Positions 41,626 to 62,855 are shown, counted from the first letter of the stretch. The stretch: 64,000 nt of DNA from Candidatus Poribacteria bacterium (GCA_028819845.1 JAPPKS010000017.1:62001-126000); one strand, 5' to 3'. Translations and numbers: made by a program. Notes: generated by a model not told the origin, from the letters alone.

Positions 41626-42849
41626 ATGCCGAATCTTACAGATAAGGAACTGCTGCAAATTATAGAAGACGATGAAGCCGACCGAGTTGAATTCAAAGAG
41701 TCACTATCCGGCAGTGCCCCGAAAGAAATCAGGGAAGCCATCTGTGCATTTGCCAACGATTTGCCGCACCGCGAAAAACCAGGCTATGTTTTCGTCGGGG
41801 TACGGAACGACAAATCTATCGCGGGGTTAACTGACACGAACGAATTGCTCCGCCAATTGGCTGATATGAAAACCGACGGGAATATCGTACCGCCGCCTTC
41901 ACTGACCGTTGAAAAGTGTGTGCTGGGCGCAAGGCAAATTGCATTGGTCACGGTGCAACCATCTAACTCGCCGCCGGGTCGGTACAAGGGTGTTATCCAT
42001 ATCCGTATTGGTCCCCGCCGCGGCATCGCGACAGCGCAGGAGGAAAGCATTCTCAACGAAAAGCGGCGATATGGAGACATCCCCTTCGACGTAAATCCTA
42101 TCCCCACTGCCGGCATCTCTGACCTAAACCTTGCGCAGTTCGAGAATGAATACCTGCCGCGGGTTGTCCCTACCGAAATATTGGAAGCCAATGAACGCAC
42201 TCCTGAAGAACGATTGGCTGCAAATAAAATGACCGCTCCAGGCGATGCACGAATCGCAACAGTGCTCGGAATCCTGGTGCTTGGTAAGAATCCACAAGAT
42301 TTTCTTCCCGGCGCTTACGTCCAGTTCCTCAAAATTGATGGCGGTGAGCTAACCGACGATATAGTTGACAGTGAGGAGATTCACGGCGCAATTCCGGACC
42401 TTCTTCGCCGTCTCGACGATAAACTAAACGCTCACAACCGCATCGCTGTCGATATTACGACGAGTAACGTCGAACGACGAACATCGCTTTATCCCATGAT
42501 GGCGGTGCAACAGATTACTCGGAATGCGGTGATGCATAGGAGCTACGAAGCAACCAATGCGCCGATTCGTGTGTCGTGGTTCAATGACCGCATTGAGGTG
42601 TTGAGCCCTGGCGGCGCCTTCGGGGCTGTGACCACCGAGAATTTCGGTCACACCGGTCTTACCGACTATCGTAACCCCAATTTAGCGGAAGCCATGAAAA
42701 ACCTCGGTTTTGTGCAGCGGTACGGCATGGGAATACCGATTGCTAGAATGTCGCTCAAAGCAGCCGGACACCCGGAACCCGAATTTAAGCTAAATGGCAG
42801 TTACGTGCTAACTACAATCAAAATCGCCAGAAATCCTGTCAGGACATGA
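41626..42849 (+). CDS. Schlafen/AlbA_2-domain ATP-binding protein
   Basis: A 407-aa protein. The N-terminal AlbA_2 domain shows DRVEFKESLSG, KEIREAICAFANDLP and GYVFVGVRNDKSIAGL (residues about 18-70). A middle part carries RIATVLGILVLGKNPQDFLPGAYVQFLK. The C-terminal region (AVQQITRNAVMHRSYEATNAPIRV and NPNLAEAMKNLGFVQRYGMGIPIAR) matches the HATPase-like part of this regulator family. Related proteins act as transcriptional regulators or in phage defence. Its TGA overlaps the ATG of the ParA gene (ATGA, 42846-42849), so the two are coupled. Confidence 0.85.
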   Translation: MPNLTDKELLQIIEDDEADRVEFKESLSGSAPKEIREAICAFANDLPHREKPGYVFVGVRNDKSIAGLTDTNELLRQLADMKTDGNIVPPPSLTVEKCVLGARQIALVTVQPSNSPPGRYKGVIHIRIGPRRGIATAQEESILNEKRRYGDIPFDVNPIPTAGISDLNLAQFENEYLPRVVPTEILEANERTPEERLAANKMTAPGDARIATVLGILVLGKNPQDFLPGAYVQFLKIDGGELTDDIVDSEEIHGAIPDLLRRLDDKLNAHNRIAVDITTSNVERRTSLYPMMAVQQITRNAVMHRSYEATNAPIRVSWFNDRIEVLSPGGAFGAVTTENFGHTGLTDYRNPNLAEAMKNLGFVQRYGMGIPIARMSLKAAGHPEPEFKLNGSYVLTTIKIARNPVRT

Positions 42850-43847
42850 CAATGCCCGTTCCAGTTTTAACATTCTTCAACAACAAAAGCGGTGTTGGCA
42901 AGACCTCCCTTGTTTATCATCTGGCGTGGATGCTTTCCGACATCGGTCACCGCGTCCTTGCCTGCGATCTCGACCCGCAGGCAAATCTTACGAGCAGGTT
43001 TATCAATGAAGACCAACTAGAAACACTCTGGCCCAACCATGGACCCCGAAAGTCCATCTATAGCGCACTTGAACCTCTTTTAGACGGAACTGGCGACGTT
43101 GAAAATCCTCATTTGGAGATTTTAACGCCGGAATTGAGTCTCATCGTGGGGGACCTCACTTTATCAGCCACAGAAGATGAACTTTCCAGCCAATGGCAAG
43201 AGTGCCTCGATAGGCGCCCTCGTGCATTCCGGGTAATTTCGGCGCTATGGCGTATTGTGCAAAACGCGGCGGAAAGTAATCAGGTCGAGATTGTTTTAGT
43301 AGACGTCGGCCCTAATCTGGGCGCTTTGAATAGGGCAGTGCTAGTGGCGACAGATTACCTAATAGTTCCACTTGGAACAGATCTACTCTCGCTTCAAGGG
43401 TTGCGCAACCTCGGTCCAACGCTGCACGATTGGCGCAATGGGTGGTTGGATAGATACGACCGCAACCCTATCTCTGACCTGCCTATACCTAGCGGATTAA
43501 TTCAACCAATCGGCTATGTGGTACAGCAGCACGGCGTCCGCTTGGGGCGTCCTGTTATGGCGTATGACAAGTGGGTCAACCGTATGCCGGAGGAATATGC
43601 GCGAAACCTGCTCGATGACAACGACGGACCTTACCCTCAGACGCCGGAACAGGATAAAGCAAATGCCCTCGCCACTGTTAAGCACTTCCGGGGATTGGTA
43701 CAAATGGCGCAGGAAGCGCGAAAGCCCATCTTCCACCTCACTCCCGCTGACGGAGCTATCGGCAGTCACGCCGCAGCCGCCAATGCCGCCCGTCGTGATT
43801 TCAAAAAATTAGCAGATAAGGTTATGGCGTGGATGGCACCAGCGTAG
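42846..43847 (+). CDS. ParA/Soj-family ATPase
   Basis: A 333-aa protein with FFNNKSGVGKTSLVYHLAW (deviant Walker A with the signature Lys), VLACDLDPQANLT (Walker A' Asp) and VEIVLVDVGPNLGALNRAVLVATDYLIVPL (Walker B). The C-terminal half contains a longer unrecognised insert. ParA proteins usually move DNA or protein cargo, but no parB or parS is next to it; coupling to an AlbA_2 protein suggests a role in the island rather than chromosome partition. ATG 42846 or 42852 can start it. Confidence 0.85.
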   Translation: MTMPVPVLTFFNNKSGVGKTSLVYHLAWMLSDIGHRVLACDLDPQANLTSRFINEDQLETLWPNHGPRKSIYSALEPLLDGTGDVENPHLEILTPELSLIVGDLTLSATEDELSSQWQECLDRRPRAFRVISALWRIVQNAAESNQVEIVLVDVGPNLGALNRAVLVATDYLIVPLGTDLLSLQGLRNLGPTLHDWRNGWLDRYDRNPISDLPIPSGLIQPIGYVVQQHGVRLGRPVMAYDKWVNRMPEEYARNLLDDNDGPYPQTPEQDKANALATVKHFRGLVQMAQEARKPIFHLTPADGAIGSHAAAANAARRDFKKLADKVMAWMAPA

Positions 43848-45779: not shown

Positions 45780-48700
45780 ATGACTACATCCAAACAAGAA
45801 ATCAAATCAGCCCTACAACGCTTCACCGATGGCAACTTTGCCGAAAACGCACGGTACCTTTTTGAGATTCTCGGCTACCGCAGCCAAAGGGCGATGGACT
45901 TGGAATACAACACCGCCGAGGAGTTTCTTGAAGTTCTCGATCGGCACGGAAAGGTTAATCAACAACGTGCGTTGCTAAATCAGTGGGACTCCATTCATAT
46001 CCTGCTTCAACTGAAAGCCGAACAGATCCGCGAAAACGGCGTAATTGAATTCGCTTCCACAGACGCCGATGTGGATAGCACATACATTGAATCCTACCTC
46101 TTTTTGGCGCTTAAGCTTCGCGGTGACAATTACACGCGCACACATCTCTCCCAAATTACTCGCGAAATCAACAGACCATTCGACATGCCCGCCATGATCC
46201 TCTTCCAACACGGCGAGACGCTTACTTTCGCGGTGATTGACCGAAGGCGTCACAAACGGGACAGGTCCAAAGATGTTCTCGAAAAGGCGACCCTCATCAA
46301 AGACATCGGATACACCGGTCCTCGCCCTCACCCCGCCCATGTTAACATTTTGTTCGATCTATCGATTGCGGAACTACACCGTAAACACCAATTCGCCAAT
46401 TTTAAAGAACTTCATGACGCTTGGAAAAAGACGCTTGACACGTCCGAACTCAACAAACGATTCTACAGGGAGATTGCCAATTGGTATTTTTGGGCGGTTA
46501 ATCAAGTAACTTTCCCAGACAATGCAGGGGAAGATGTCGAGGTGCGCAATGCCACCAGCGTGATCCGGTTGATTACGCGCCTGATTTTCGTATGGTTCAT
46601 CAAGGAAAAGGGATTAGTCCCCGATGCGCTTTTTGCTGTAAGAGACATAAAAACCCTTCTTCATAACACCGAACCCGATGCGAGCACCTACTACAAAGCA
46701 ATTCTTCAAAACTTGTTCTTTGCCACGCTCAATCAGGAAATGAACACTGAAGAAAAACCCAATAACCGCAAGTTCAGGATTCAGGCGAAGCAATCAGGCG
46801 ATAGAGATCAAAACTACATGGCGCATTCCTTATACCGGTACGAAAATTGTTTCAAGGATAAGCAAAATGCGCTCGAACTTTTTGGTGACATTCCTTTCCT
46901 TAACGGCGGCCTGTTCGAGTGTTTGGACAAACTGGTCGAGAACGATTCCGAAAAAGACAACTCCAAAAAGCCTAACTCTAAAGAGATACGAATTGATGGC
47001 TTTTCCGACCATAAAAAGAACCCGTTAATTGTCCCAAATTTCCTATTCTTCTCCGATGAACAGAGCGTTGACCTCAATGCCGCTTACGGCACACGCGGTA
47101 AGAATTACAAGGTACGTGGCCTAATCAATATTTTTGACAGTTACAAATTCACGGTTACCGAAAATACGCCGATTGAAGAAGAAGTCGCCCTTGACCCCGA
47201 ATTACTTGGTAAGGTCTTTGAGAACCTACTCGCCGCATACAACCCCGAAACCGGCATGTCCGCCCGCAAGCAGAGTGGTTCGTATTACACGCCCCGTGAA
47301 ATCGTCAACTACATGACCGACGAATCACTAATCGCTTACTTAAAACACAAGTGCATCGCCTACCGCGAATCCCAATCCGCTCCTTCGCCGACCACGCCGC
47401 CTGCGCAACTAGATCTCAGCGGTCGCATGGAACCAGTCCAAACGCAAATTGACACTCGTGGCGTAAAACTCTCCGATGAACAGAAAGACCAGATAGAGAA
47501 AGACCTCCGGCATCTGCTCGCTTACAATGACGCGCCGCACCGTTTTAGCCCTGATGAAATTGAGGTGTTGATAAACGCCGTTGACTCACTAAAAATACTT
47601 GATCCCGCCTGCGGTTCCGGCGCCTTTCCAATGGGCGTGCTGCACAAGTTGGTGTTCATTCTTTCCAAACTCGACCCTGGGAACGTGCGATGGAAAGAAC
47701 GGCAAATTGAAAAAGCATGCGAGATTCCTGATCCTACTACCCGTGACAAAACGATTGATGATATCGAAGCTGCATTTGAAAGCAATGAGCTAGACTACGG
47801 ACGGAAACTCTACTTGATTCAAAATTGCATTTTCGGAGTGGACATCCAGCCCATTGCAGTACAAATCGCCAAACTCCGCTTCTTTATATCTCTAGTCGTC
47901 GATCAACAACTGGACGATTCAGCAAACAATCGTGGGGTGCGCCCTCTTCCGAATCTAGAAACCAAATTTGTCGCGGCAAACACGCTAATCGACATTACAG
48001 GACAACTGTCGCTTCGCAGTTCAGAAATAAGAAAAAGAGAAATTGAACTTCAAGAGGTTCGGCGCCGTCACTTTACTGCGCGCACACCCACGACAAAAAG
48101 GCGTTATCGTGAGCGAGATGCTGAACTCCGTGCAGAAATTGGTGCATTACTCAGCGATTTGGGGTTACCGAAAGGGACGGCCGACGAAATTGCACGATGG
48201 GACCCATACGACCAGAATGCTTTCGCTGTTTTCTTCAATCCCGACTGGATGTTCGGTCTCTCGCAAGGGTACGATGTAGTGATTGGCAATCCACCATACA
48301 TTAATATTGAAAATCTGCAAAGTACAATAAAGGATTATCTATTCAAAAATTTTCAAACGTGTCAAGGGAGAACAGATATTTACATCGCTTTTCTCGAAAA
48401 ATCTATGTCCATTCTCCGAGGAATAATGTGTTTTATTCTCCCGTCAGCTTTTGCAACCCAAAAATACGGAAAAAAACTGCGCCAGATGCTCATTGGACAT
48501 TACGGAATTCGAGAAGTCGTCGATGCTAGTAGTTACAGGATTTTCGAGAATGCGACGGTTTACAATATAGTTTTGATGGTTGGGAAAGAAAAAGAACAAA
48601 ACGAAGAAACCAAGGTCAAATTGCATTCCAGCAATTCAGATTTTGAAACGCGTGGCGGGAGGGAGTTTTACGTCAATCAACAACTCTTTTCGAAACTCAA

Positions 48701-49481
48701 GGATTCTCGTTTTGAAACCGATCCACTCGTCTTTGACGGGCTTAAAGTGCAGGCAAAAATATGGCAGCACTCCGTTCGTTTTGATCGGATTTGCTTCGTC
48801 GCCTACGGCGCGCGGCTCAATCATCGTTCGGAAAATCTGGGAAAGCAACACTACATAAGTCAATCGCAAACGCCGGGCGCAAAACGGTTTTGTGAAGGAA
48901 AAAACATTGAGCGTTACACTTTTTCACAGGCCGGCTGGCTTGATTACACGCCCGATGAACACTACAATTCGATGTTTCCTGAACTATTCGCAAACAGAAA
49001 GCTGATGTCTATCAACGTTGTAAAAGATCGGTTGCGGTTTGCTTATGACGATAAATGCTTCTTCAACAGTCATACGGTTATAAACTGCGTTAGGCTCGAT
49101 TTGCTCTCGCATGCCTCCCACGTTTCAGCACGCCGTGCTTTTCGAAATGCCGATAAGAAATTCGCCAAACAATTTAGTTATGGGTTTCTTCTAGGAGTTC
49201 TAAATTCTACACCAATTAACTGGTATTTCCGAAGTTTCTTAAGCGAGAGTTTACATTTCTACCCGAACGATGCCAAACAGTTACCTATTCCTAGCGCGAT
49301 GCTCGATCAACAAACTCCCGTCTCTCGACTCGCAAATCAAATTCTTGATACCAAACGCATTGCCCCGAACGCCGATGTATCCGAACTTGAAAATGAGATT
49401 GATCGGATAGTATACTCCTTATACAACCTAACCCCTGAAGAAATCGCGATTATCGAGACATCGGACAGTAGAGGTGATTAG
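45780..49481 (+). CDS. Eco57I/TaqI-type N6-adenine DNA methyltransferase
   Basis: A 1233-aa protein. The N-terminal 450 residues include FYREIANWYFWAVNQV and NATSVIRLITRLIFVWFIKEKGLVP, a segment typical of large restriction-type methylases; I see no convincing PD-(D/E)xK nuclease motif. YYTPREIVNYM (near 500), the SAM motif LDPACGSGAFPMG (near 606) and the catalytic VIGNPPYINIE (near 836) are intact. The C-terminal third is a TaqI-like target-recognition region (PGAKRFCEGKNIERYTF, LLGVLNSTPINWYFRSF, DAKQLPIPS). It should methylate adenine in a specific site. The likely restriction partner is the PLD-helicase at 59529-62855. A GGAGAAG site precedes ATG 45780. Confidence 0.9.
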   Translation: MTTSKQEIKSALQRFTDGNFAENARYLFEILGYRSQRAMDLEYNTAEEFLEVLDRHGKVNQQRALLNQWDSIHILLQLKAEQIRENGVIEFASTDADVDSTYIESYLFLALKLRGDNYTRTHLSQITREINRPFDMPAMILFQHGETLTFAVIDRRRHKRDRSKDVLEKATLIKDIGYTGPRPHPAHVNILFDLSIAELHRKHQFANFKELHDAWKKTLDTSELNKRFYREIANWYFWAVNQVTFPDNAGEDVEVRNATSVIRLITRLIFVWFIKEKGLVPDALFAVRDIKTLLHNTEPDASTYYKAILQNLFFATLNQEMNTEEKPNNRKFRIQAKQSGDRDQNYMAHSLYRYENCFKDKQNALELFGDIPFLNGGLFECLDKLVENDSEKDNSKKPNSKEIRIDGFSDHKKNPLIVPNFLFFSDEQSVDLNAAYGTRGKNYKVRGLINIFDSYKFTVTENTPIEEEVALDPELLGKVFENLLAAYNPETGMSARKQSGSYYTPREIVNYMTDESLIAYLKHKCIAYRESQSAPSPTTPPAQLDLSGRMEPVQTQIDTRGVKLSDEQKDQIEKDLRHLLAYNDAPHRFSPDEIEVLINAVDSLKILDPACGSGAFPMGVLHKLVFILSKLDPGNVRWKERQIEKACEIPDPTTRDKTIDDIEAAFESNELDYGRKLYLIQNCIFGVDIQPIAVQIAKLRFFISLVVDQQLDDSANNRGVRPLPNLETKFVAANTLIDITGQLSLRSSEIRKREIELQEVRRRHFTARTPTTKRRYRERDAELRAEIGALLSDLGLPKGTADEIARWDPYDQNAFAVFFNPDWMFGLSQGYDVVIGNPPYINIENLQSTIKDYLFKNFQTCQGRTDIYIAFLEKSMSILRGIMCFILPSAFATQKYGKKLRQMLIGHYGIREVVDASSYRIFENATVYNIVLMVGKEKEQNEETKVKLHSSNSDFETRGGREFYVNQQLFSKLKDSRFETDPLVFDGLKVQAKIWQHSVRFDRICFVAYGARLNHRSENLGKQHYISQSQTPGAKRFCEGKNIERYTFSQAGWLDYTPDEHYNSMFPELFANRKLMSINVVKDRLRFAYDDKCFFNSHTVINCVRLDLLSHASHVSARRAFRNADKKFAKQFSYGFLLGVLNSTPINWYFRSFLSESLHFYPNDAKQLPIPSAMLDQQTPVSRLANQILDTKRIAPNADVSELENEIDRIVYSLYNLTPEEIAIIETSDSRGD

Positions 49482-49560: not shown

Positions 49561-50064
49561 ATGCCTTACAGAAACAAAACATATGTTTGTTTTGATGGTG
49601 ACAATGACATTCACTATTATTGGTTGATGAAGGCTTGGAAACAAAATGACGGTTTGTCCTTCAACTTTTTTGATGCTCACGATTTGAATACTGCTCGGGA
49701 TACAAGTTTAACAGATTCAATCAGGAAACAGCTTCGGCAGAGGTTGAAAAACAGCAAGATTCTGGTGGTTTTAATTGGGGAGCAGACACGATACCTTTAT
49801 CGCTTTGTGCGATGGGAAATGGAACAAGCTCTAAATTTAGGTTTGCCGATAATTGGTGTTAATTTGAATGGGCTAAGACAACAAGATTCAAAAAGGTGTC
49901 CTCCAGTAATACGCGATGAACTGGCTGTTTATGTTAGCTTTAACGCTGCTATTTTGCAATATGCTTTGGAGAATTGGCCCGCAAGTCATAGAACATATCA
50001 ACAGCAGGGAAAGTCAGGGCCGTATTATTACAAACAAAGTGTCTATAAAGGATTAGGCTTGTGA
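49561..50064 (+). CDS. thsB: Thoeris ThsB-like TIR (DUF1863) protein
   Basis: A 167-aa protein. ATG 49561 is chosen because AAAGGAGA (49541-49548) lies 12 nt upstream; a longer frame begins at TTG 49522. KTYVCFDGDNDIHYYWLMKAW, FNFFDAHDLNTARDTS, KNSKILVVLIGEQTRYLYRFVRWEMEQAL and GLPIIGVNLNG follow the TIR-like DUF1863 pattern. The Glu in FVRWE (about Glu86) is the expected NADase residue. In Thoeris, ThsB senses phage and makes an ADP-ribose-type signal from NAD. The stop overlaps the next gene (GTGA, 50061-50064). The base composition is AT-rich compared with its neighbours. Confidence 0.8.
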   Translation: MPYRNKTYVCFDGDNDIHYYWLMKAWKQNDGLSFNFFDAHDLNTARDTSLTDSIRKQLRQRLKNSKILVVLIGEQTRYLYRFVRWEMEQALNLGLPIIGVNLNGLRQQDSKRCPPVIRDELAVYVSFNAAILQYALENWPASHRTYQQQGKSGPYYYKQSVYKGLGL

Positions 50065-51032
50065 AATTACCTAATTTTCTTTCCAATTTGAAAGACACCA
50101 TATACCCTGACTTCCTAAAGCACATCTTCATTGTCCTTGGTTCAATTTGGTTACTAATTGAGATGGGGTCTTTTATGATTCCTTCGGTTGAGAGTTCGGC
50201 GCGGGGCAACGCGACGTTGTTTTTAATTTGTTTGAGTTTGGCAATAGCATTCGGTCTGGTTAAAATCATCCGGAGGCATACGGACGAGCGGCGACGTACA
50301 GAAGAAATTTCGGTTAGTCACAAGTTAGTCCGAAACGATATTTTGATAGAAATTCGCGTTGACAATCTTTTTGACGTTGAAGGGGCATTTGTTTTAAGCA
50401 CCAATACGACATTCGACACTGACATGTCCGCGGGTTTGATTTCCAAAATGAGTTTACAAGGACAATTTACAACGAACTACTATAACAAGGTAGAGCATCT
50501 TAACCGAGATTTGGAAGAATCGTTAAAAGGAGAAGTTCCAATTTCAGAGGACACGATTGGAAATACAAAACGGCACAAGATTGGCGGAAAAACGAAATGT
50601 TACGAAATTGGTACTGTGGCGCAGGTGTGTCCTTCAGATGAGGTTGTTGTCTACTTGGTCGCAATTGCGCACATTAATGACAATGGGAAGGCTTATGGTA
50701 CAGTTGAAGAGGTTATAAAGGGCTTAGGGAAACTTTGGTATTATATTGGTGAACACGGCGAGCTTGAATCTATTGTAGTGCCTGTTTTAGGCACCGGCTT
50801 AACAAGGATACGTATTTCAAGGGAAGATATGATTAGAGAAATTATCAAATCATTCATTACCGCTTGTTCAGAAAAGAAATTCACGGACAAATTGACAATC
50901 GTTATTTCCGAAAGTGACTATCGTAAATATAAAATAGATTTGGACGAATTAGGAAAATACCTTTATCATCATTGCAAATACACGGTCCTAAAGAGCAAAA
51001 CAGATACTGGAAGAGGAGAAGAAATCCCTTGA
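50061..51032 (+). CDS. thsA: Thoeris type II ThsA-like effector: two TM spans plus Macro domain
   Basis: A 323-aa protein starting at GTG 50061, overlapping thsB by 4 nt, with AAGGA about 10 nt upstream. Two membrane helices (IFIVLGSIWLLIEMGSFMI, about 20-40, and TLFLICLSLAIAFGLVKII, about 52-70) precede a Macro-type domain (about 90-310) with IEIRVDNLFDVEGAFVLSTN, VAIAHINDNGKAYGTVEEV and LESIVVPVLGTGLTRIRIS. A TM-Macro partner for a ThsB-like TIR is the layout of type II Thoeris, in which the Macro domain senses the TIR-made signal and the membrane part kills the cell. The 60-base line from 50881 has only 18 G+C, against more than half in the helicase gene. Confidence 0.8.
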   Translation: MKLPNFLSNLKDTIYPDFLKHIFIVLGSIWLLIEMGSFMIPSVESSARGNATLFLICLSLAIAFGLVKIIRRHTDERRRTEEISVSHKLVRNDILIEIRVDNLFDVEGAFVLSTNTTFDTDMSAGLISKMSLQGQFTTNYYNKVEHLNRDLEESLKGEVPISEDTIGNTKRHKIGGKTKCYEIGTVAQVCPSDEVVVYLVAIAHINDNGKAYGTVEEVIKGLGKLWYYIGEHGELESIVVPVLGTGLTRIRISREDMIREIIKSFITACSEKKFTDKLTIVISESDYRKYKIDLDELGKYLYHHCKYTVLKSKTDTGRGEEIP

Positions 51033-51365: not shown

Positions 51366-54300
51366 ATGAGCAAACCACTAAAAGCCTTCATAACTTATTC
51401 ACATAAAGACCTAGAGCAGAACATCGAATTACAAACGCGCCTCGCTGTATTGGCGGATCAAGGCAAGATTGAGCTTTGGGACGATAACAAAATTCTCCCG
51501 GGCGACGAGTGGGAGGAAGACATTACTGAAAATCTCGCCGAATCGGACATTTTACTTTATCTTACCTCCGCCGCGAGTCTTGCATCGAAAAACTGCAATA
51601 AAGAATTGGCGGAGGCATTAAACTCCAAGATAAGGGTCATCCCGATAATCCTTGAGCATTGTGATTGGGAGAATCATCAACTCAGTCGTTTTGAGGTTCT
51701 GCCGCACAAAGGCAAACCTATTAACAAATGGCAACCTGAAAGCGATGGTTGGCAAAATGTAGTGACCGGTATCCGAAAAGTCGTTGACGAAATGCGACCT
51801 CAATTGGATTCGTCATCGGGTACGCCTAACGATCATCTACGTGCCGAATTGGCATTCCAACAAGGCAACGTTTTCATGATGTTTGGAGGAATAGACAAGG
51901 CGATAGACGCCTACTCGAATGCGATTAAACTCAATCCACGTGATACCGATGCCTTTAACAATCGCGGCGTTGCTTACCAAAAGTTGGGTAAGTTTGACAG
52001 CGCTATTGACGACTATAACACGGCGATACCACTCAACCCCTATGATGCGGTTATCTATAGCAACCGCGGCGCTGCTTACGTTGACAAAGGGGAACCTGAC
52101 CGCGGTCTCGAAGACATTAACAGAGCGATAGAGTTGAATCCCAATTATGCCGAAACTTTTTACAATCGTGGTATTGCTTACGTCAACAAAGGCGAGTATG
52201 ATCGGGCCATCGCAGATTACAACATAGCAGTCAAACGCGGACGCGATCATGCTGATGTATACAACAACCGCGGCATCGCTTTCCATAAGAAATGCGAGTT
52301 TGACCGGGCTATCTTAGATTTTGATACAGCAATAAAAATGAGTCCAAAGTTTCCCGATCACTATGTCAATCGCGGAAATGCTTTCCATGAAAAAGGTGCG
52401 ATTGACCACGCTATTGAAGATTTTAACAGGGCTATAGAACTCAATCCTAATGGTACCATCGCTTACAATAGTCGCGGAAATGTTTATAGTGGCAAAGGGG
52501 AGTACGATCGTGCTATTGCAGATTTTAACAAGGCAATACAATTGAATCCAAACCTCGCGGAGCCATATAATAATCGTGGAGGTGTTTACCACGATAAAGA
52601 GGATTTTGATCGTGCTATCAAAGACTTTGATAAGGCGATACAACTCAATCCCGGTTACGCGAACGCCTACTACAATCGCGGCGTTACCTATAAGAGCAAA
52701 GGCAATGTTCAATTTGCTCTAAAGGACTTCAATAAAGCGATAGAGCTGAATCCCGATTTTGCCATAGCATATAGCAATCGCGGCGTTGTTTACGACATGA
52801 AAGTCGACCATGACCGTGCCATGTTAGAATTGAACAAAGCCATTGAGCTCAATCCCAACCTTGCTGAAGCTTATATCAATCGCGGAATCGCTTACGACCA
52901 GCGGAGCGATTTTAACCGTGCCACTGAAGACTTTAACATGGCAATACAACTGAAACCGAAATTTGCCGAGGCATACAACAGCCGTGGTATCACTTACGGC
53001 AAAAAAGATCAGGTTAACCTTGCCCTTAAAGACTTTAACCATGCTATAGAAATCAAAACCGATTATGCCATAGCCTACAACAATCGCGGTGCTGTCTATC
53101 GGGGAAAGGGGGATTTTGACCTTGCCATCGTAGACTGTAACCGTGCGATAGAACTCAAGCCTGATTACGCCGAGCCTTATAGCAATCGCGGTGCCGCATA
53201 CCGCAACAAAGGTGATTATGTCCGTGCCATCGCCGACTTTGACACGGCGATACAGCTCGAACCGAATCTTGTCGAAGCCTATAATGGACGGGGCAATGCC
53301 TATATCACCATTGGCGAATATGACCGTGCCATTGTTGACTTTAACAAAGTAATAGAACTCAATCCGGGGCTTTCCATTGTTTATAACAATCGTGGAGTGG
53401 CTTATTATAGCAAAGGCGAGGTTGACCGTGCTCTTGAAGATTATAACAAAGCGATAGATTTAAAGCCGGTTTTTGTCGCCGCCTATTATAATCGCGGTGA
53501 AGCGTGGTTACGGTTGAAAGAATGGGAAAATGCCCGCAAGGATTTGAACACTGCTAAAGACAACGGTGTGGATATCATCGCTGGGCTCCGTAACGATTAC
53601 AAAAGCGTAAAGGACTTCGAGAAGAGACATCGTGTGAATCTACCGGCGGACATCGCTGCGATACTGACGCGACCGCGGCGCACACGTTTTCCAAGAAAGG
53701 AAAAATTCATAGACTCCGACGGTACTCCCTTTGAATCGCCTGAAGTGTTGAATCTCCTGGCGAAACTTCGCAACGCAGGCACACCTTTGTCGGATTACAT
53801 TCAAACGCGCCCCAGTTTCGGAATCAAAACCGGCAGTAACGGAGCCTTCGTCGTAGATAGCGCGACCCGAGATCGACTCATTGCGGAGCACCCTTCCTCC
53901 GTTGAAATTTTAAAGCCGTTTTTGCACGGGCGGGATATCAGGCGTTGGAGGGTAGCAAAACCGGATACATGGTTAATTTTTACCTACCGTCGCATAGATA
54001 TAAACCGTTATCCTGCCATCCGAAATCACTTGGAAACACATAGGTCCACCTTAAGCAAAAGAACGGGTAAACAGAAATGGTATGAATTACCAGCCGCCAA
54101 AAGCGATGCCGAACGCTTTACGCAAACGAAGTTGATTTGCCCAAACAGCTACGACCACCAAACCTTCGCCGTTGATTCGGACGGTTTCTACTGCGGGGAT
54201 ACATGCTACCTTATCCCGACTGAGGAGACGTGGTTATGCGGTCTCCTCAATTCCCGTGTCGTGGAGTGGTTCTATTCGCAGACTTCAAACCAATTAACGG

Positions 54301-54725
54301 GTGATTATCTTCGGGCGCGCAGCCGTTATATGCAACAGATTCCTATTCCCGATCTTACACCAACACAGAAATCACTAACCGGCAAAATTGTCGATTATCT
54401 CACCTACCTTCAGGGACAGCCGACGACGAGTGGCGGGGATCTGGCACACTCCCGCGACTTCATAATGCTCGGATATTTTGAACGAATCATTGACGGACTG
54501 ACTTATGAGTCCTATCTGAGTGAAGAACTACATCAAGGTGAAAAGCAGTTCTTCAAACCGTTGTTAGACGAAGGGTTGCCGCAGATTGAAGAAATTCAGG
54601 GAGATAAAATGCCCGCGTTACGTGAAATCTTTGAACGCTTGTATGAAAGAACCCATCAGATCCGGATCAACCTTTTCTTTCTGGATAGCGTAAAACCGAT
54701 CCGTATCATTGAGGACAAGGCGTGA
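51366..54725 (+). CDS. TIR - 17 TPR - TaqI-type target-recognition domain fusion
   Basis: An 1119-aa protein. ATG 51366 is chosen over an upstream TTG because it directly precedes the TIR domain. Residues 1-145: TIR_2 domain (KAFITYSHKDLEQN, LWDDNKILPGDEW, SDILLYLTSAASLASKNCNKELAEAL), with Glu80 as the expected NADase residue. Residues about 157-740: 17 consecutive 34-residue TPRs (AxAYNNRGxAYxxKGxxDRAIxDFNKAIELNPxx). Residues about 775-1030: the C-terminal specificity domain of Eco57I/TaqI methylases (FGIKTGSNGAFVVDSATRDR, LKPFLHGRDIRRW, TWLCGLLNSRVVEWFYS, RYMQQIPIPDL), with no methylase catalytic motif. A DNA-reading module thus sits where a sensor would be expected. The gene overlaps the following ATPase (GTGA). 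Confidence 0.85.
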   Translation: MSKPLKAFITYSHKDLEQNIELQTRLAVLADQGKIELWDDNKILPGDEWEEDITENLAESDILLYLTSAASLASKNCNKELAEALNSKIRVIPIILEHCDWENHQLSRFEVLPHKGKPINKWQPESDGWQNVVTGIRKVVDEMRPQLDSSSGTPNDHLRAELAFQQGNVFMMFGGIDKAIDAYSNAIKLNPRDTDAFNNRGVAYQKLGKFDSAIDDYNTAIPLNPYDAVIYSNRGAAYVDKGEPDRGLEDINRAIELNPNYAETFYNRGIAYVNKGEYDRAIADYNIAVKRGRDHADVYNNRGIAFHKKCEFDRAILDFDTAIKMSPKFPDHYVNRGNAFHEKGAIDHAIEDFNRAIELNPNGTIAYNSRGNVYSGKGEYDRAIADFNKAIQLNPNLAEPYNNRGGVYHDKEDFDRAIKDFDKAIQLNPGYANAYYNRGVTYKSKGNVQFALKDFNKAIELNPDFAIAYSNRGVVYDMKVDHDRAMLELNKAIELNPNLAEAYINRGIAYDQRSDFNRATEDFNMAIQLKPKFAEAYNSRGITYGKKDQVNLALKDFNHAIEIKTDYAIAYNNRGAVYRGKGDFDLAIVDCNRAIELKPDYAEPYSNRGAAYRNKGDYVRAIADFDTAIQLEPNLVEAYNGRGNAYITIGEYDRAIVDFNKVIELNPGLSIVYNNRGVAYYSKGEVDRALEDYNKAIDLKPVFVAAYYNRGEAWLRLKEWENARKDLNTAKDNGVDIIAGLRNDYKSVKDFEKRHRVNLPADIAAILTRPRRTRFPRKEKFIDSDGTPFESPEVLNLLAKLRNAGTPLSDYIQTRPSFGIKTGSNGAFVVDSATRDRLIAEHPSSVEILKPFLHGRDIRRWRVAKPDTWLIFTYRRIDINRYPAIRNHLETHRSTLSKRTGKQKWYELPAAKSDAERFTQTKLICPNSYDHQTFAVDSDGFYCGDTCYLIPTEETWLCGLLNSRVVEWFYSQTSNQLTGDYLRARSRYMQQIPIPDLTPTQKSLTGKIVDYLTYLQGQPTTSGGDLAHSRDFIMLGYFERIIDGLTYESYLSEELHQGEKQFFKPLLDEGLPQIEEIQGDKMPALREIFERLYERTHQIRINLFFLDSVKPIRIIEDKA

Positions 54726-56170
54726 GAATTACCGAAATTGAAATCAAAAATTTCAAAGCCTTTCATGGTACTTACCAAATTGACCTGCACAAAGCCGGGA
54801 AGAACTTGCTGGTTTACGGCGAAAATGGGAGCGGAAAATCATCCCTGTATTTCGCGTTAATGCGGTTCTTGGAATCCGGCGATGATCCGTTGCACAGGTT
54901 TGAAAACGATCAGAACATCTTTATCGCAGATGCGGGCTATATCAAATTATGTCTCCGCGCTGACGAAGGATCAAGGAAGACGATCTACGAGTGGTCGGAG
55001 AGCGTTAGAGAAACGGATGACGAACTGATTATTGAGGCATCGAAGGCAAAGGGTTTTCTCGATTATAAGTCGCTTTTGGATACGCACTACCTTCATCAAA
55101 AAAGAAACACTGTAAACGTGTTCGAATTGCTGCGCAAGACGCTCTTGGCAAACACCGTCAGTACCCTGACGAATCGAACCCTTGACCACGATTGGGCTGC
55201 CATTCAGCCGCCGTATCCACGCCGAAACGCCACAGGCAAAATTGCAGATTTAGAAAAACAGACAGAAGCCTTCAATACCGAATTAACAAATAGATTAGCG
55301 GAACTTCAGCCAATCGCATCTGAAATCCTTGGCAAGTTTGGACACAACGTTGCCCTTAACTTCGATTTTCCGGGTATTCAATACAATCGCGACACCAAGA
55401 CGCTTGATAATCAGGAAATCCTGTTAACGGTTGCGCTATTTGACCGAGATATCCCCGACCATCACCATTTCCTAAACGAGGCGAGGTTATCGGCGATTGC
55501 TATCGCAATCTATTTCTCGTCAATCCTGATTCAACCGGAAAGCCGCCTGAAGATTCTCGCCTTAGACGATGTGTTAATCGGCTTGGACACGTCAAACCGC
55601 CTGCCGGTGCTCGATATCTTAAACGAGTATTTTCCAGACCACCAAATCTTTTTGACGACCTATGATAAAACGTGGTATGAGATTGCCAAACAGCGGACGC
55701 CCGATGCGAAATGGAAATACGCCGAATTTTATACCTCGAAAACCGATGAATACGAGATTCCGGTCTATGCAGAAGATAAAGCGTATCTTGAGAAAGCGAA
55801 AGACTATTTCGCCGACAACGACTACAAAGCCAGCGCAATCTACCTTCGCACCGCCTTTGAAACCGTTATTAAGAAGTTCTGCGAAAAGAAGGGCCTCCGA
55901 GTCAGATACTGTGAAAACCCCAAGAAACTCAAAGGCGATGATTTCTGGATACCAATAAAAACGGGAAAGCGAAACGATAATACTCCATTTTTGGAACCAA
56001 GCCTCATTAACGACATTGAACTGTACCGAAGTATTATCCTTAACCCACTCAGCCACTCTAGTACCGTTACGGTAGTCAAAAAGGAAATTTCCGATGCAAT
56101 AAAAGCAGTGGAAAAACTTAAAACTAAATTAGCAAGAAATTTAAGAAACGACCCGCGGGCACATAGCTAA
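54722..56170 (+). CDS. SMC/RecF-like AAA ATPase coupled to the TIR-TPR gene
   Basis: A 482-aa protein starting at GTG 54722 inside the previous stop (GTGA). MRITEIEIKNFKAFHGTYQIDL and LVYGENGSGKSSLYFALMRF (Walker A, near residue 33) open the ATPase; a short coiled segment (about 165-200) follows; LKILALDDVLIGLDTSNRLPVLD (Walker B, near 281) and HQIFLTTYDKTWYEIAKQ close it. The last 130 residues (YFADNDYKASAIYLRTAFETVIKKFCEKKG ... RSIILNPLSHSS) are helical and may be HEPN-like, which is uncertain. It lacks the long coiled coil of true SMC proteins. It is probably the motor or switch partner of the TIR-TPR-TRD protein. Confidence 0.85.
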   Translation: MRITEIEIKNFKAFHGTYQIDLHKAGKNLLVYGENGSGKSSLYFALMRFLESGDDPLHRFENDQNIFIADAGYIKLCLRADEGSRKTIYEWSESVRETDDELIIEASKAKGFLDYKSLLDTHYLHQKRNTVNVFELLRKTLLANTVSTLTNRTLDHDWAAIQPPYPRRNATGKIADLEKQTEAFNTELTNRLAELQPIASEILGKFGHNVALNFDFPGIQYNRDTKTLDNQEILLTVALFDRDIPDHHHFLNEARLSAIAIAIYFSSILIQPESRLKILALDDVLIGLDTSNRLPVLDILNEYFPDHQIFLTTYDKTWYEIAKQRTPDAKWKYAEFYTSKTDEYEIPVYAEDKAYLEKAKDYFADNDYKASAIYLRTAFETVIKKFCEKKGLRVRYCENPKKLKGDDFWIPIKTGKRNDNTPFLEPSLINDIELYRSIILNPLSHSSTVTVVKKEISDAIKAVEKLKTKLARNLRNDPRAHS

Positions 56171-56877: not shown

Positions 56878-57285
56878 ATGCGAATGCCGAACGAAAATCT
56901 AAAACACAGGGATATCACCGAAAAGATTATCGGGGCTGCGTTTGAAGTGCACAAGTTTTTAGGTAACGGCTTTCAAGAGGTGATTTATCAACGAGGGTTG
57001 GCGATTGAGTTGGCGCGGGCAGGCTTGGCATTTGCGCGCGAAATGGAGCGAGGTATTTTCTACAAAGATGTGCAGGAACCCATCGGCACTCGTCGAGCAG
57101 ATTTCGTGGTCGAAGAAAAGGTATTGGTGGAATTAAAAGCTATCTCCGAGTTGGAAGACGTGCACATTGCCCAAGTGTTAAATTATTTGAGAACATATCG
57201 GTTGGAAGTTGGATTATTGATTAATTTCGGATCGAAAAAATTGACATTCAAAAGGTTAATTCTCACGCAACCGAATCGCCGCTGA
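56878..57285 (+). CDS. GxxExxY protein (PDDEXK_3)
   Basis: A 135-aa protein: LKHRDITEKIIGAAFEVHKFLGNGFQEVIYQRGLAIELARAG carries the GxxExxY-type motif (GNGFQEVIY), and TRRADFVVEEKVLVELKAI carries the PD-(D/E)xK-like D...E-x-K core. VLNYLRTYRLEVGLLINFGSKKLTFKRLI is the family C-terminus. It is a predicted small nuclease fold of unproven function, commonly found alone between repeats. ATG 56878 or 56884 can start it. Confidence 0.85.
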   Translation: MRMPNENLKHRDITEKIIGAAFEVHKFLGNGFQEVIYQRGLAIELARAGLAFAREMERGIFYKDVQEPIGTRRADFVVEEKVLVELKAISELEDVHIAQVLNYLRTYRLEVGLLINFGSKKLTFKRLILTQPNRR

Positions 57286-57648: not shown

Positions 57649-58425
57649 ATGTGTATAACAGGTTTTGGTAGGACAAAAAAGTTTCCCGCCCATACTCACA
57701 AGGCGGAGTGGGGTTATTCCGCAGAGAATGGGCCGGATGTTTGGGGGCAGCTTAATCAGGAATATATCCTTTGCGCCGAGGGGACGCACCAATCACCGAT
57801 CGACATTGTGAACCCGGTGCAAACCCAACTTCCGACTGTCTTCTTTGAATACTATCCTGCAACGGGTGTGGACATCCACCATGATGGACATACGATTGAA
57901 GTGGCATATCCTGAAGGCAGCGGAATCCATATCGATGGAACCTACTATCAACTGCTCCAATTCCATTTCCATGCACCTAGCGAACATACGGTAGCCGGTA
58001 AACAGTTTGACATGGAAATGCACCTCGTTCACCAAAGTGAAGCGGGCGATCTAGCAGTCGTTGGTTTGTTAATCGAGAGTGGTCGCCACCACCCTGCATT
58101 TGACCCAATCTGGGATTCCTTACCGTCCTCGCCGCTCGAAACACAGCGCGTTGAGAATGTGATTATTAATCTTGATGTGATGCTGTCGCCCAATGGACAG
58201 ATGCGTGATCAAGCCGGAGCGGCTTTTCCCAGCACCTACCGCTACGACGGTTCACTGACGACCCCGCCATGTACAGAGGGTGTCAAATGGATTGTGCTCA
58301 CAACGCCCGCTGAGATGTCTGAATCGCAAATTGCGGCATTTAAAGCGATTATCCACGGCAACAACCGGCCGGTGCAGCCGTTAAATGGGCGTAAACTGTT
58401 CCTCGATGTCACAGGAGTGCCCTAA
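57649..58425 (+). CDS. Alpha-class carbonic anhydrase, no visible signal peptide
   Basis: A 258-aa protein. AEWGYSAENGPDVWGQL, HQSPIDIVNP, LLQFHFHAPSEHTVAGKQFDMEMHLVH (three zinc His and the Glu network) and GSLTTPPCTEGVKWIVL (substrate-pocket Thr) are the complete alpha-CA set. It interconverts CO2 and bicarbonate. Bacterial alpha-CAs are normally exported, but here the frame opens with MCITGFGRTKKFPAHTHKAE, and a stop (57640-57642) lies just upstream, so an exported form would need a lost or frameshifted 5' end. Confidence 0.92.
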   Translation: MCITGFGRTKKFPAHTHKAEWGYSAENGPDVWGQLNQEYILCAEGTHQSPIDIVNPVQTQLPTVFFEYYPATGVDIHHDGHTIEVAYPEGSGIHIDGTYYQLLQFHFHAPSEHTVAGKQFDMEMHLVHQSEAGDLAVVGLLIESGRHHPAFDPIWDSLPSSPLETQRVENVIINLDVMLSPNGQMRDQAGAAFPSTYRYDGSLTTPPCTEGVKWIVLTTPAEMSESQIAAFKAIIHGNNRPVQPLNGRKLFLDVTGVP

Positions 58426-59528: not shown

Positions 59529-62500
59529 ATGCCAGAAAACACGACACTATTCCCGTCCGGCATCCGCGATAACCGCGAGCGCGGTACGGTCGGTGAGTTT
59601 CTGAAGTCGCAAATCGAAAACGGTTCGTCACTCTCGGTTGTATCCGCTTACTTTACAATTTACGCCTTCGAGGCGCTGAAATCATCCCTGTATCAAATCA
59701 AAGACCTTCGCTTCCTATTTGGCGAACCCCGGTTCATCCAAGGGCTTGATCCCGATAAAACAGAGAAGAAATCATTCATCATTAACGCTGATGGTTTGCA
59801 GTTGAAGAACCAACTTCAACTTAAGCAGGTGGCGCGAGAATGCGCTGACTGGATTGCGGAGAAAGTAGAGGTTCGGTCAATCCGTGAATCAAATTTGCTG
59901 CACGGCAAAATGTACCACATCGCTAAGAACGGCGTGGAAGACGCCATCCTCGGCAGCTCCAATTTTACCGTTCGGGGTTTAGGGTTAAGTCAAACAGCGG
60001 GTAACATTGAACTCAATCTGACGGTGGAAGACAGGCGTGACCTGAACGACTTGAAATTGTGGTTTGATGAACTCTGGAATGACAAGAGCCGCGTGAAGGA
60101 TGTCAAGGAGGAGGTATTGACCTACCTTAACCAGCTCTATGAGAATCACGATCCGGAATTCATATACTACAAGACGCTATTTCACCTTTTCGAAAAATAT
60201 TTGGGTGATCAGGAGGGTTGGGGTCTGCTGGACGAACCGCCGCAACTGGTTGATACCCAAATCTGGAAAGTTCTCTATGAATTTCAAAAGGACGGCGTGA
60301 AAGGCGCCATCAACAAAATCTTGACGCACAACGGGTGCATCATCGCTGACAGCGTCGGTTTGGGCAAGACGTTCGAGGCGCTGGCGGTGATAAAGTACTT
60401 CGAACTCCGCAACGAAAACGTGCTGGTGCTGTGCCCCAAGAAATTGCGCGAGAACTGGACGCTTTACCAAGCGCACACCGGAGACAAGTTTAATCCGTTT
60501 CTCAACGACCGCTTCGGCTACAGTGTTCTGTCGCACACCGACCTGAGCCGGAGCAGCGGTATGTCGGACAGTATTAACCTTGCATCGTTTAACTGGGGTA
60601 ACTACGGGCTGGTGGTTATCGACGAGTCGCACAACTTCCGAAACAATACCCGCGGAAAACGGGACGAGGACGGCGTTCCCATTAGCCGATCCCGCTACGA
60701 GCGGCTGATGGAAGACATCGTCAAGAGCGGCGTAAAGACCAAGATGCTGCTGTTGTCCGCGACGCCCGTAAACAACGACCTAAGGGATCTGCGCAACCAA
60801 CTCTACTTTCTCACGGAGGAGCGAGATGACGCTTTCGAGGAATCGCTCGGTGTCGTTAATTTGAGGGAAACCATATCAACCGCCCAAACCGCATTTAACA
60901 GGTGGGCAAAACAGGAAGGAGCGCGAAGCAGTCAAGGGTTGCTTGAAATACTAAGCACCTCCTTCTTCAGATTGCTTGACGGGTTGACAATCGCCCGTTC
61001 CCGGAAACAGATTGAAAAATACTATCCTAGCTCATTGAAAGAACTCGGCGGATTCCCGGAGCGTAGTAAACCCGAACCCGTTTATCCGGATATTGATACA
61101 CGCGGTGAGTTCATGTCTTACGACGAGCTAAACGCGGAGATTTCGCAGTATCAGCTCTCCCTCTACAATCCGACCAAATATCTCCGCCCCGAACACCATT
61201 CCGAATACGACCTAGGGCACATCAATCACTTTACGCAGAGTGACCGCGAATACTACCTAATCGGCATGATGAAGGTGAATTTTCTTAAACGCTTGGAGAG
61301 TTCTGTTCACTCCTTTAAGATTACGCTGGAACGTACGCTTGAGAAAATTGACGATTTGGAAGGTCGTATCCGGCGGTTTCAGGAATACCGCGGCGAAAAC
61401 CCCGACGCGGATTTGGGCGACGTGGATATCGATGCTCTCGAAGATGAAGAGTTGCAAGCGGCAATGCAGGTTGGTAAAAGCCTAAAGTTCAAGATGGCGC
61501 ACCTTGACGTTGAGCGGTGGCTCGAGGATTTACAACATGACCGAGACCAACTTGAAGGCCCCTACCGCTCGGCAAAAGAAATCAACATGCACCGCGATGC
61601 CAAACTCGCTAAACTCAAAGAACTGATTCAGGCGAAGGTCAACAATCCGACAACCACAAAGGAAAATAAATCGAATCGCAAAGTGCTTGTATTCACTGCA
61701 TTTGCCGACACCGCCGACTACCTCTACGGCGCACTCCATGAATGGGCAACCGCAAAACTGAATATCCACGCCGGGATGGTGACCGGCGCCGGCGCGAACA
61801 AAACTACGCTTGGCAGGACCAACTTCATCGACATTCTCACTAACTTCTCCCCGATTGCGAAGAACCGCGCCGGCATCGCCTCAATGCCGCAGGATGAGGA
61901 GATCGATCTGCTGATCGGCACCGACTGCATCTCGGAAGGACAAAACCTCCAAGACTGCGACTACCTAATCAATTACGACATACACTGGAACCCTGTGCGC
62001 ATCATCCAACGGTTCGGACGGATTGATAGAATTGGAAGCGTCAATAACAGTGTGCATTTGGTGAATTTCTGGCCCACCGAAGATCTGAATCGTTACATTA
62101 ACCTCAAAAACCGGGTTGAAGCACGGATGGCCCTCGTGGATGTCACAGCCACACAAGGAGATAACCTGCTCGATCCCGATGCACTTCACGACGTTATCGA
62201 AGGCGACCTAAGGTACCGCGACCAGCAACTGCTGAAGCTCAAGGATGAAGTCCTTGAGCTCGAAGAGTTTGCCGAAAGTGTTGCCCTTAACGAGTTCACG
62301 CTTGACGATTTCCGTATGGAACTCATCAAATACATTGAAAGTAACCGGAAAAAACTTGAGGGATCGCCTTTTGGGCTCTATGCCGTCGTGCCGCCGCCTC
62401 CAAATGACCCGATAATTCAACCTGGCGTCATCTTTTGCCTCCGCCAGAAAACCGAGTCGGATGAAAACCGGAACCTGAATCCGACACAACCCTATTTCCT

Positions 62501-62855
62501 CGTCTATGTTCGGCACGATGGGGTTGTGCGTTTTTCCTTCGTCTATCCCAAACAGATTCTGGAAATGTACCGCCAACTCTGCTCAGGGAATAACAGACCC
62601 TATGACGAACTCTGTGCGCTGTTCGACGAACGCACGGCTAACGGCGCAGACATGTCCCAATACGACGACCTTCTTGACAAGACCGTAAAATCTATCGCCC
62701 AGACCTACAGAAAACGCGCCTTCGACAACCTCACATCAGGCCGCGGCGGCGCCCTACCGCTTGTAACCGATCAGATTAGCGGCGCAACTGACTTCGAACT
62801 CGTCACATGGCTGGTGATTGAAAATCCTGAAATCGAGCAAGATTGCGCAACCTAA
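59529..62855 (+). CDS. PLD-nuclease / SNF2-type helicase of a restriction-like system
   Basis: An 1108-aa protein. Residues about 20-200: phospholipase D-like nuclease domain with LLHGKMYHI (near 124) and AILGSSNFT (near 142), the HxK and N pair. Residues about 255-560: helicase domain 1 with CIIADSVGLGKTFEAL (Walker A, near 275), LVVIDESHNFRN (near 365) and LLLSATPVNN. Residues about 700-900: helicase domain 2 with VLVFTAFADTADYL, LIGTDCISEGQNLQDCDYLINYDIHWNP and IQRFGRIDRIGS. The tail resembles the part of such proteins that contacts partners. Family members are commonly encoded beside Eco57I-type methylases, here at 45780-49481. Start ATG 59529 follows AGGAGAA. Confidence 0.9.
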   Translation: MPENTTLFPSGIRDNRERGTVGEFLKSQIENGSSLSVVSAYFTIYAFEALKSSLYQIKDLRFLFGEPRFIQGLDPDKTEKKSFIINADGLQLKNQLQLKQVARECADWIAEKVEVRSIRESNLLHGKMYHIAKNGVEDAILGSSNFTVRGLGLSQTAGNIELNLTVEDRRDLNDLKLWFDELWNDKSRVKDVKEEVLTYLNQLYENHDPEFIYYKTLFHLFEKYLGDQEGWGLLDEPPQLVDTQIWKVLYEFQKDGVKGAINKILTHNGCIIADSVGLGKTFEALAVIKYFELRNENVLVLCPKKLRENWTLYQAHTGDKFNPFLNDRFGYSVLSHTDLSRSSGMSDSINLASFNWGNYGLVVIDESHNFRNNTRGKRDEDGVPISRSRYERLMEDIVKSGVKTKMLLLSATPVNNDLRDLRNQLYFLTEERDDAFEESLGVVNLRETISTAQTAFNRWAKQEGARSSQGLLEILSTSFFRLLDGLTIARSRKQIEKYYPSSLKELGGFPERSKPEPVYPDIDTRGEFMSYDELNAEISQYQLSLYNPTKYLRPEHHSEYDLGHINHFTQSDREYYLIGMMKVNFLKRLESSVHSFKITLERTLEKIDDLEGRIRRFQEYRGENPDADLGDVDIDALEDEELQAAMQVGKSLKFKMAHLDVERWLEDLQHDRDQLEGPYRSAKEINMHRDAKLAKLKELIQAKVNNPTTTKENKSNRKVLVFTAFADTADYLYGALHEWATAKLNIHAGMVTGAGANKTTLGRTNFIDILTNFSPIAKNRAGIASMPQDEEIDLLIGTDCISEGQNLQDCDYLINYDIHWNPVRIIQRFGRIDRIGSVNNSVHLVNFWPTEDLNRYINLKNRVEARMALVDVTATQGDNLLDPDALHDVIEGDLRYRDQQLLKLKDEVLELEEFAESVALNEFTLDDFRMELIKYIESNRKKLEGSPFGLYAVVPPPPNDPIIQPGVIFCLRQKTESDENRNLNPTQPYFLVYVRHDGVVRFSFVYPKQILEMYRQLCSGNNRPYDELCALFDERTANGADMSQYDDLLDKTVKSIAQTYRKRAFDNLTSGRGGALPLVTDQISGATDFELVTWLVIENPEIEQDCAT

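Follow-up and report, generated by a model that had tools for sequence, protein, structure and literature searches.

A TIR-TPR-methylase specificity domain fusion paired with an SMC/Rad50-type ATPase in Poribacteria: a probable anti-phage suicide system

Why should a TIR domain, a TPR array and a methylase-type DNA specificity domain (TRD) be carried on one chain, and why does the gene for this chain run directly into that of an ATPase? The arrangement occurs in the window, by which we mean the whole 64,000-nucleotide stretch of Candidatus Poribacteria DNA analysed here (GCA_028819845.1, JAPPKS010000017.1:62001-126000). An earlier note on this DNA had read the two genes as a candidate undescribed defence pair: a TIR with its Glu80 intact, TPRs and a TRD lacking a methylase catalytic motif, overlapping a RecF-like ATPase gene by GTGA. 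It had proposed either that a DNA sequence or modification guides NADase activation or that the pair links restriction to abortive infection. Based on sequence comparisons and predicted structures, we conclude that the pair is a probable, undescribed anti-phage suicide system.

Domain make-up of the fusion protein and its ATPase partner

The fusion gene is read here from an ATG (Table 1), although the program-called ORF begins further out, at a TTG (51267). Pfam confirmed the three parts in a single chain, with matches to TIR_2 at residues 8-109 (1.8e-14) and to TaqI_C at residues 850-994 (1.4e-15). The TPRs number about 17, of which Pfam picks up 13-16 stretches, depending on the model. The catalytic Glu80 of the TIR domain lies intact within the motif CNKEL and is kept in all 24 of the aligned fusion TIRs. 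The TIR domain is predicted to be an NAD-consuming effector. A sequence search of the TIR alone against the PDB returned no match. In a motif scan, [NDS]PP[YFW] was absent from the fusion, as the earlier note had claimed, and present in the window methylase P0003 as NPPY837.

Structure prediction covered only the fusion C-terminus and the ATPase. The C-terminus (residues 790-1119) was modelled from a 62-sequence alignment of the loci found here, with a pLDDT of 93. As the earlier note had proposed, it is predicted to fold as a TRD, and the model matches DNA-bound CamA in Foldseek (E 3.4e-15, TM about 0.67). Further matches, from the fold search and PDB profiles, are M.BseCI, MmeI and BrxX/PglX.

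The ATPase gene starts with a GTG and shares the four nucleotides GTGA, at 54722, with the end of the fusion gene. Its product belongs to the SMC/Rad50/RecF type by Pfam (SMC_N/AAA_15/AAA_23), profile and fold, which upholds the RecF-like assignment; the model (pLDDT 89) resembles SMC and Rad50 heads. The Walker A motif GENGSGK and the Walker B DD are invariant among 63 relatives. The C-terminal helical domain has the invariant residues R376, E380, N441 and H445 (A3 numbering). Searches against Pfam, PADLOC and NCBIfam gave no match to the PrrC/RloC family.

Table 1. Features of the fusion-ATPase locus and its surroundings in the window
Feature	Position	Strand	Evidence or remark
Effector-sensor fusion gene, TIR - TPR array - TaqI_C-type TRD - C-terminal tail	51366..54725	+	1119 aa from ATG
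TIR domain, aa 1-150, predicted NAD-consuming effector, Glu80 intact	51366..51815	+	Pfam TIR_2; E80
TPR array, about aa 161-762, linker/oligomerisation region	51846..53651	+	13-16 Pfam TPR stretches by model
TRD, aa about 810-1014, TaqI_C/CamA/BseCI type, without methylase catalytic part	53793..54407	+	Pfam, PDB profile, model, Foldseek
C-terminal tail, aa about 1015-1119, predicted ATPase-coupling module	54408..54722	+	Co-occurrence with ATPase
SMC/Rad50/RecF-type ATPase, Walker A GENGSGKS, Walker B LALDD, C-terminal helical domain	54722..56170	+	Pfam, profile, fold
Eco57I-type N6-adenine methylase P0003, type IIG-like, own different TRD, no tail	45780..49481	+	Pfam; frequent upstream partner
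ThsB, type II Thoeris	49561..50064	+	PADLOC ThsB 8.9e-80
ThsA, N-terminal hydrophobic segment and macro domain	50061..51032	+	Pfam ThsA_Macro 2.9e-49, PADLOC ThsA 2.8e-62
PLD-SNF2 helicase, about 1100 aa, canonical operon member, here downstream	59529..62855	+	PADLOC C3a139 'HKD+Snf2' 1.4e-126
ParA/MinD-type ATPase, possible accessory	42846..43847	+	Pfam; 76% identical gene directly before G021 helicase-methylase-fusion-ATPase

Conservation of the pair and exchange of the N-terminal heads

The ATPase is present in 41 of the 85 Poribacteria genomes, and 40 of its loci in the phylum (L034-L073) were inspected. The gene directly 5' of it encodes TPRs with the same TRD and tail in 39 of these, the fortieth lying at a contig end; the fusion is thus not a product of chance, and the two-gene layout proves to be strictly conserved in other genomes. 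Roughly 20 other genomes have the complete TIR-TPR-TRD-tail architecture. Of 75 entries, in which some loci are counted twice, 68 show an overlap of 4 or 7 nucleotides between the stop codon of the TRD gene and the first ATPase start. According to the genome contig scan, the carriers, many of them sponge-symbiont genomes, are mostly Poribacteria and Latescibacteria assemblies, together with one assembly labelled Gemmatimonadetes. Across the Latescibacteria, only 4 of the 64 genomes searched have the ATPase, and the cyanobacterial matches are mostly weak. The fused proteins range from 547 to 1758 residues, and the length of the TPR array differs between loci. A scan of viral contigs with the ATPase turned up methylase-ATPase pairs and one truncated contig; no effector fusion was found among them.

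Effector heads are exchanged on a shared TRD-tail-ATPase base. Among 43 distinct fusions, 22 begin with TIR, 5 with FRG (PF08867), 2 with an HNH_5-like domain whose Pfam scores fall slightly under the curated cut-off, and 14 with TPRs only. All 43 form one clade in the TRD-tail tree (SH-aLRT 99, by a quick method). The N-terminal class changes at least 14 times on this tree, and FRG requires five separate changes and HNH two. The nearest relative of the window pair (G021) is 80% identical in the TRD and 77% in the ATPase, and just 26% in the TIR. The literature describes both TIR and Frg domains as effectors that consume NAD+ or may act against viruses (PMC9503650). At least five of the TPR-only loci have a separate upstream gene encoding an effector with TPRs, either FRG (L040, L066, L072) or TIR (L044, L068), and some other TPR-TRD genes (L051, L054, L057, L061, L065) have no recognisable effector in cis, a point against a sensor-effector unit. 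A random fusion was rejected on the phylum survey together with the TRD-tail tree.

Two side observations concern these heads. At L049:2485-9161, one operon combines a free-standing FRG-TPR gene with a TIR-TPR-TRD fusion, both ahead of the same ATPase. A NERD-UvrD-like gene, a possible further effector class, lies directly 5' of head-less TPR-TRD genes in L036, L039 and L040.

TPR repeats recombine easily, and TaqI_C methylases are common in the genomes studied, so an ordinary TIR-TPR protein might have captured a non-functional methylase C-terminus, with the ATPase as a passenger. However, 43 proteins carry the full-length TRD-tail of one clade behind N-termini of at least four kinds, in every case with the ATPase, and the tail and the ATPase co-occur across phyla. 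We regard such a capture as very improbable.

Relation to restriction-like operons and to the neighbouring methylase

Outside the fusion lineages, the ATPase gene lies directly 3' of an Eco57I methylase gene that encodes the same TRD and a tail of about 100 residues. A PLD-SNF2 helicase of about 1100 residues usually precedes this methylase, as in 36 loci. These helicase-methylase-ATPase loci are found in Cyanobacteria, Bacteroidota, Chloroflexota, Planctomycetota, Pseudomonadota and others (L074-L152, e.g. L077:2279-11428), and PADLOC names just single parts of the operon. Two intermediate types occur: Nostoc and Calothrix pair the ATPase with a free-standing TRD-tail, and L125 and L135 have a helicase-methylase-TRD-tail-ATPase row. 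The G021 row (L179) reads ParA-helicase-methylase-fusion-ATPase; the window holds the same parts, but Thoeris and other genes intervene.

The tail ties these operons to the fusions. An HMM trained on the final 105 residues of fusions only matches all 34 methylases encoded directly 5' of the ATPase. It also matches ATPase-adjoining methylases of Prevotella and of three viral contigs (L175, L176, L178). By contrast, no match was obtained in three TaqI_C methylases without an ATPase neighbour, nor in the window methylase or others whose operon has the tail on another protein. About ten tail-bearing methylases are separated from the ATPase by one or more genes. The window pair follows the same rule, the protein encoded directly 5' of the ATPase bearing the tail. 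From this co-occurrence, we infer that the tail is an ATPase-docking module. As a separate observation, the three viral contigs are IMG/VR entries with methylase-tail and ATPase pairs, so that viruses or proviruses may be vehicles of the parent pair.

The fusion and the methylase-ATPase parts thus have a common origin, as judged by the homology of TRD, tail and ATPase. With the exchange of effectors, this homology favours the link between restriction and abortive infection that the earlier note had suggested. The helicase-methylase-ATPase system would have donated its TRD-tail-ATPase sensor to exchangeable abortive-infection effectors; this direction, from methylase to fusion, is taken from the nesting, the TRD-tail tree being unrooted.

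Does the TRD, then, read the site of the methylase next door? A methylase of the P0003 clade lies 5' of the fusion in 13 loci, in some within a few hundred bases, and the TRD is itself of methylase origin. In such a scheme, unmethylated phage DNA would switch the TIR on, and host methylation would keep it off. This cognate scheme was dropped as the leading reading after the TRD covariation comparison, which took in 12 of the 13 loci. Among the methylase TRDs, at least four classes are unrelated to one another (14-34% identical), whereas the fusion TRDs are uniform (59-94%), and identities between loci do not track each other (rho 0.18, the pairs not being independent). Thus, L052 and L062 share 97% identity in their methylase TRDs and 65% in their fusion TRDs, while L061 and L062 share 89% in the fusion TRDs and 21% in the methylase TRDs. 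Moreover, at most loci the stretch read contains no methylase, and the P0003-type methylase has no match in the pair-bearing genomes G043 and G084 and a marginal one in G040. Because of this lack of tracking and these absences, the site of the local methylase is unlikely to be what the TRD reads. The proposal that a local mark guides the TIR is weakened accordingly, and we consider it improbable.

The TRD is unusually conserved, whereas TRDs that read varied DNA sites usually diversify. Mean identity among the fusions is 64% for the TRD and 63% for the tail; since the TRD is as conserved as the tail and the ATPase, its ligand may be fixed or may not be a DNA sequence. This suggests a constant DNA feature or a protein.

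A protein ligand is the core of the main rival to a DNA-surveying model, in which the TRD-tail-ATPase assembly mimics a methylase subunit, senses anti-restriction proteins (DNA mimics such as Ocr, or Stp-like inhibitors) and frees the effector. The TRD fold resembles that of BrxX/PglX, whose Ocr-bound structures are solved. The TRD is conserved without following local methylase specificity, and the fusion stands beside a methylase in 13 loci. A precedent exists in EcoprrI-PrrC, where a type I restriction enzyme guards an anticodon nuclease that is released when EcoprrI is inhibited (PMC2610378). However, the pair is also found without a methylase to guard, and we hold such a decoy to be rather unlikely.

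The surroundings of the pair in the window are those of defence, with Thoeris and other defence genes. The type II Thoeris pair (49561-51032) sits between the methylase and the fusion; it has no counterpart at the other fusion loci read and is judged to be a separate system, although both TIR proteins may act through the one ThsA by cross-talk. Membership of the fusion in Thoeris was rejected, as other fusion-ATPase loci have no ThsA and the window ThsA has its own ThsB. The PLD-SNF2 helicase, a conserved neighbour in the 36 other loci, is displaced in the window and is not near most fusions. Further genes of the region include an AAA_21 ATPase that matches the PADLOC candidate HEC-01A (43895-45175, 5.5e-184). 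Between the ATPase and the helicase lie a GxxExxY/PDDEXK_3 family protein (56878-57285) and a eukaryotic-type (alpha) carbonic anhydrase (57649-58425). A Schlafen AlbA_2 protein is encoded near helicase-methylase-ATPase genes in the window (41626-42849) and at L131:8190-9656 and L180:7966-9183, and an Abi_2 gene occupies a similar position in L137.

Sponge symbionts typically have TPR proteins, and the predominance of Poribacteria and Latescibacteria among the carriers could thus be read as a sign that the protein acts on the sponge, not on phages. However, its setting is one of methylase, ATPase, PLD-SNF2 helicase and Thoeris, the restriction-like parent operon is also found in free-living bacteria, and no export signal is obvious in the fusion sequence. 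An action on the host is hardly to be expected.

Proposed mechanism and comparison with known systems

We favour, with somewhat better than even confidence, the reading that the fusion and the ATPase work as a defence unit of sensor and effector, with its origin in a helicase-methylase-ATPase restriction system. In this unit, the dimeric SMC/Rad50-type ATPase would be the docking partner of the TRD and tail, as it would be of the methylase TRD-tail in the parent system, and the resulting complex would survey DNA. The N-terminal killer domain on its TPR array would stand in for the methylase and helicase functions. The complex would respond to infection, the cue most likely being phage DNA sensed through the TRD; ATP-driven clustering would then gather the TIR domains, NAD+ would be consumed and the infected cell would stop. 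FRG (ART superfamily) or HNH heads would serve on the same base at other loci. A broader version is more tentative: specificity domain and SMC-type ATPase may together sense infection in general, through a conserved target that does not depend on the local methylase, and serve as the base for an exchange of abortive-infection heads (TIR, FRG, HNH or a separate effector-TPR protein), perhaps via TPR recombination. This would be a modular immune architecture of a new category.

The defence-unit reading would have several implications. It would trace an evolutionary path from restriction to abortive infection, in which the sensing half is retained and the cutting and marking halves are swapped for suicide enzymes. 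Three protein families that have been annotated apart so far would become linked, and the ATPase-docking tail is a directly testable prediction. The helicase-methylase-ATPase system, present across many phyla, is itself apparently uncatalogued.

The earlier note knew of no named system of this kind, and we found none in the libraries and literature searched: the models of PADLOC (2023), NCBIfam and Pfam name parts only, and no description of a TIR-TPR-TRD protein with an ATPase was found in the open-access literature searched. TIR, TPR, TaqI, Eco57I, RecF and FRG all go unmentioned in the BREX-diversity paper. The PARIS AriA model matches the N-terminal 71 residues only, and the partner of the ATPase is a TPR-TRD protein with no AriB match. 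Similarity to mad3 of MADS is weak (1.8e-11), and the other MAD genes were not found among the neighbours scanned.

Resemblances to known systems are partial. The fusion shares a TIR domain with Thoeris, and the PADLOC ThsB model (PDLC00420) matches it, but here the TIR is joined to TPRs and a TRD and has an SMC-like ATPase partner. BREX PglX/BrxX and DISARM DrmMI have the TRD fold in common with it, as well as an Eco57I-like methylase neighbour; however, the other core genes of BREX and DISARM were not seen in the fusion-ATPase system, and the fusion has no methylase domain. As in type IIG restriction-modification enzymes, the TRD is of the TaqI_C type, but the chain carries no NPPY. The operon of Eco57I methylase, RecF/SMC-like ATPase and PLD-SNF2 helicase (PADLOC REase_MTase_IIG and C3a139 HKD+Snf2) agrees in ATPase family, TRD, tail and order before the ATPase, whereas the fusion has TIR-TPR in place of the methylase part. 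STAND/AVAST and bacterial NLR-like proteins likewise combine sensor repeats with interchangeable N-terminal effectors. Here, however, a separate SMC/Rad50-type ATPase takes the place of a STAND/NACHT module and the methylase TRD is the fixed part, so that NLR-like effector exchange would occur on a base other than the STAND ATPase. Finally, EcoprrI-PrrC and RloC also bring together restriction machinery, a cell-disabling effector and an ABC/Rad50-like ATPase (PMC2610378). In PrrC and RloC, the nuclease resides on the ATPase chain and acts on tRNA, whereas the fusion carries an exchangeable effector through TPRs on a methylase TRD, with a separate ATPase. The fusion-ATPase pair would thereby extend restriction-linked abortive infection, possibly as a new class.
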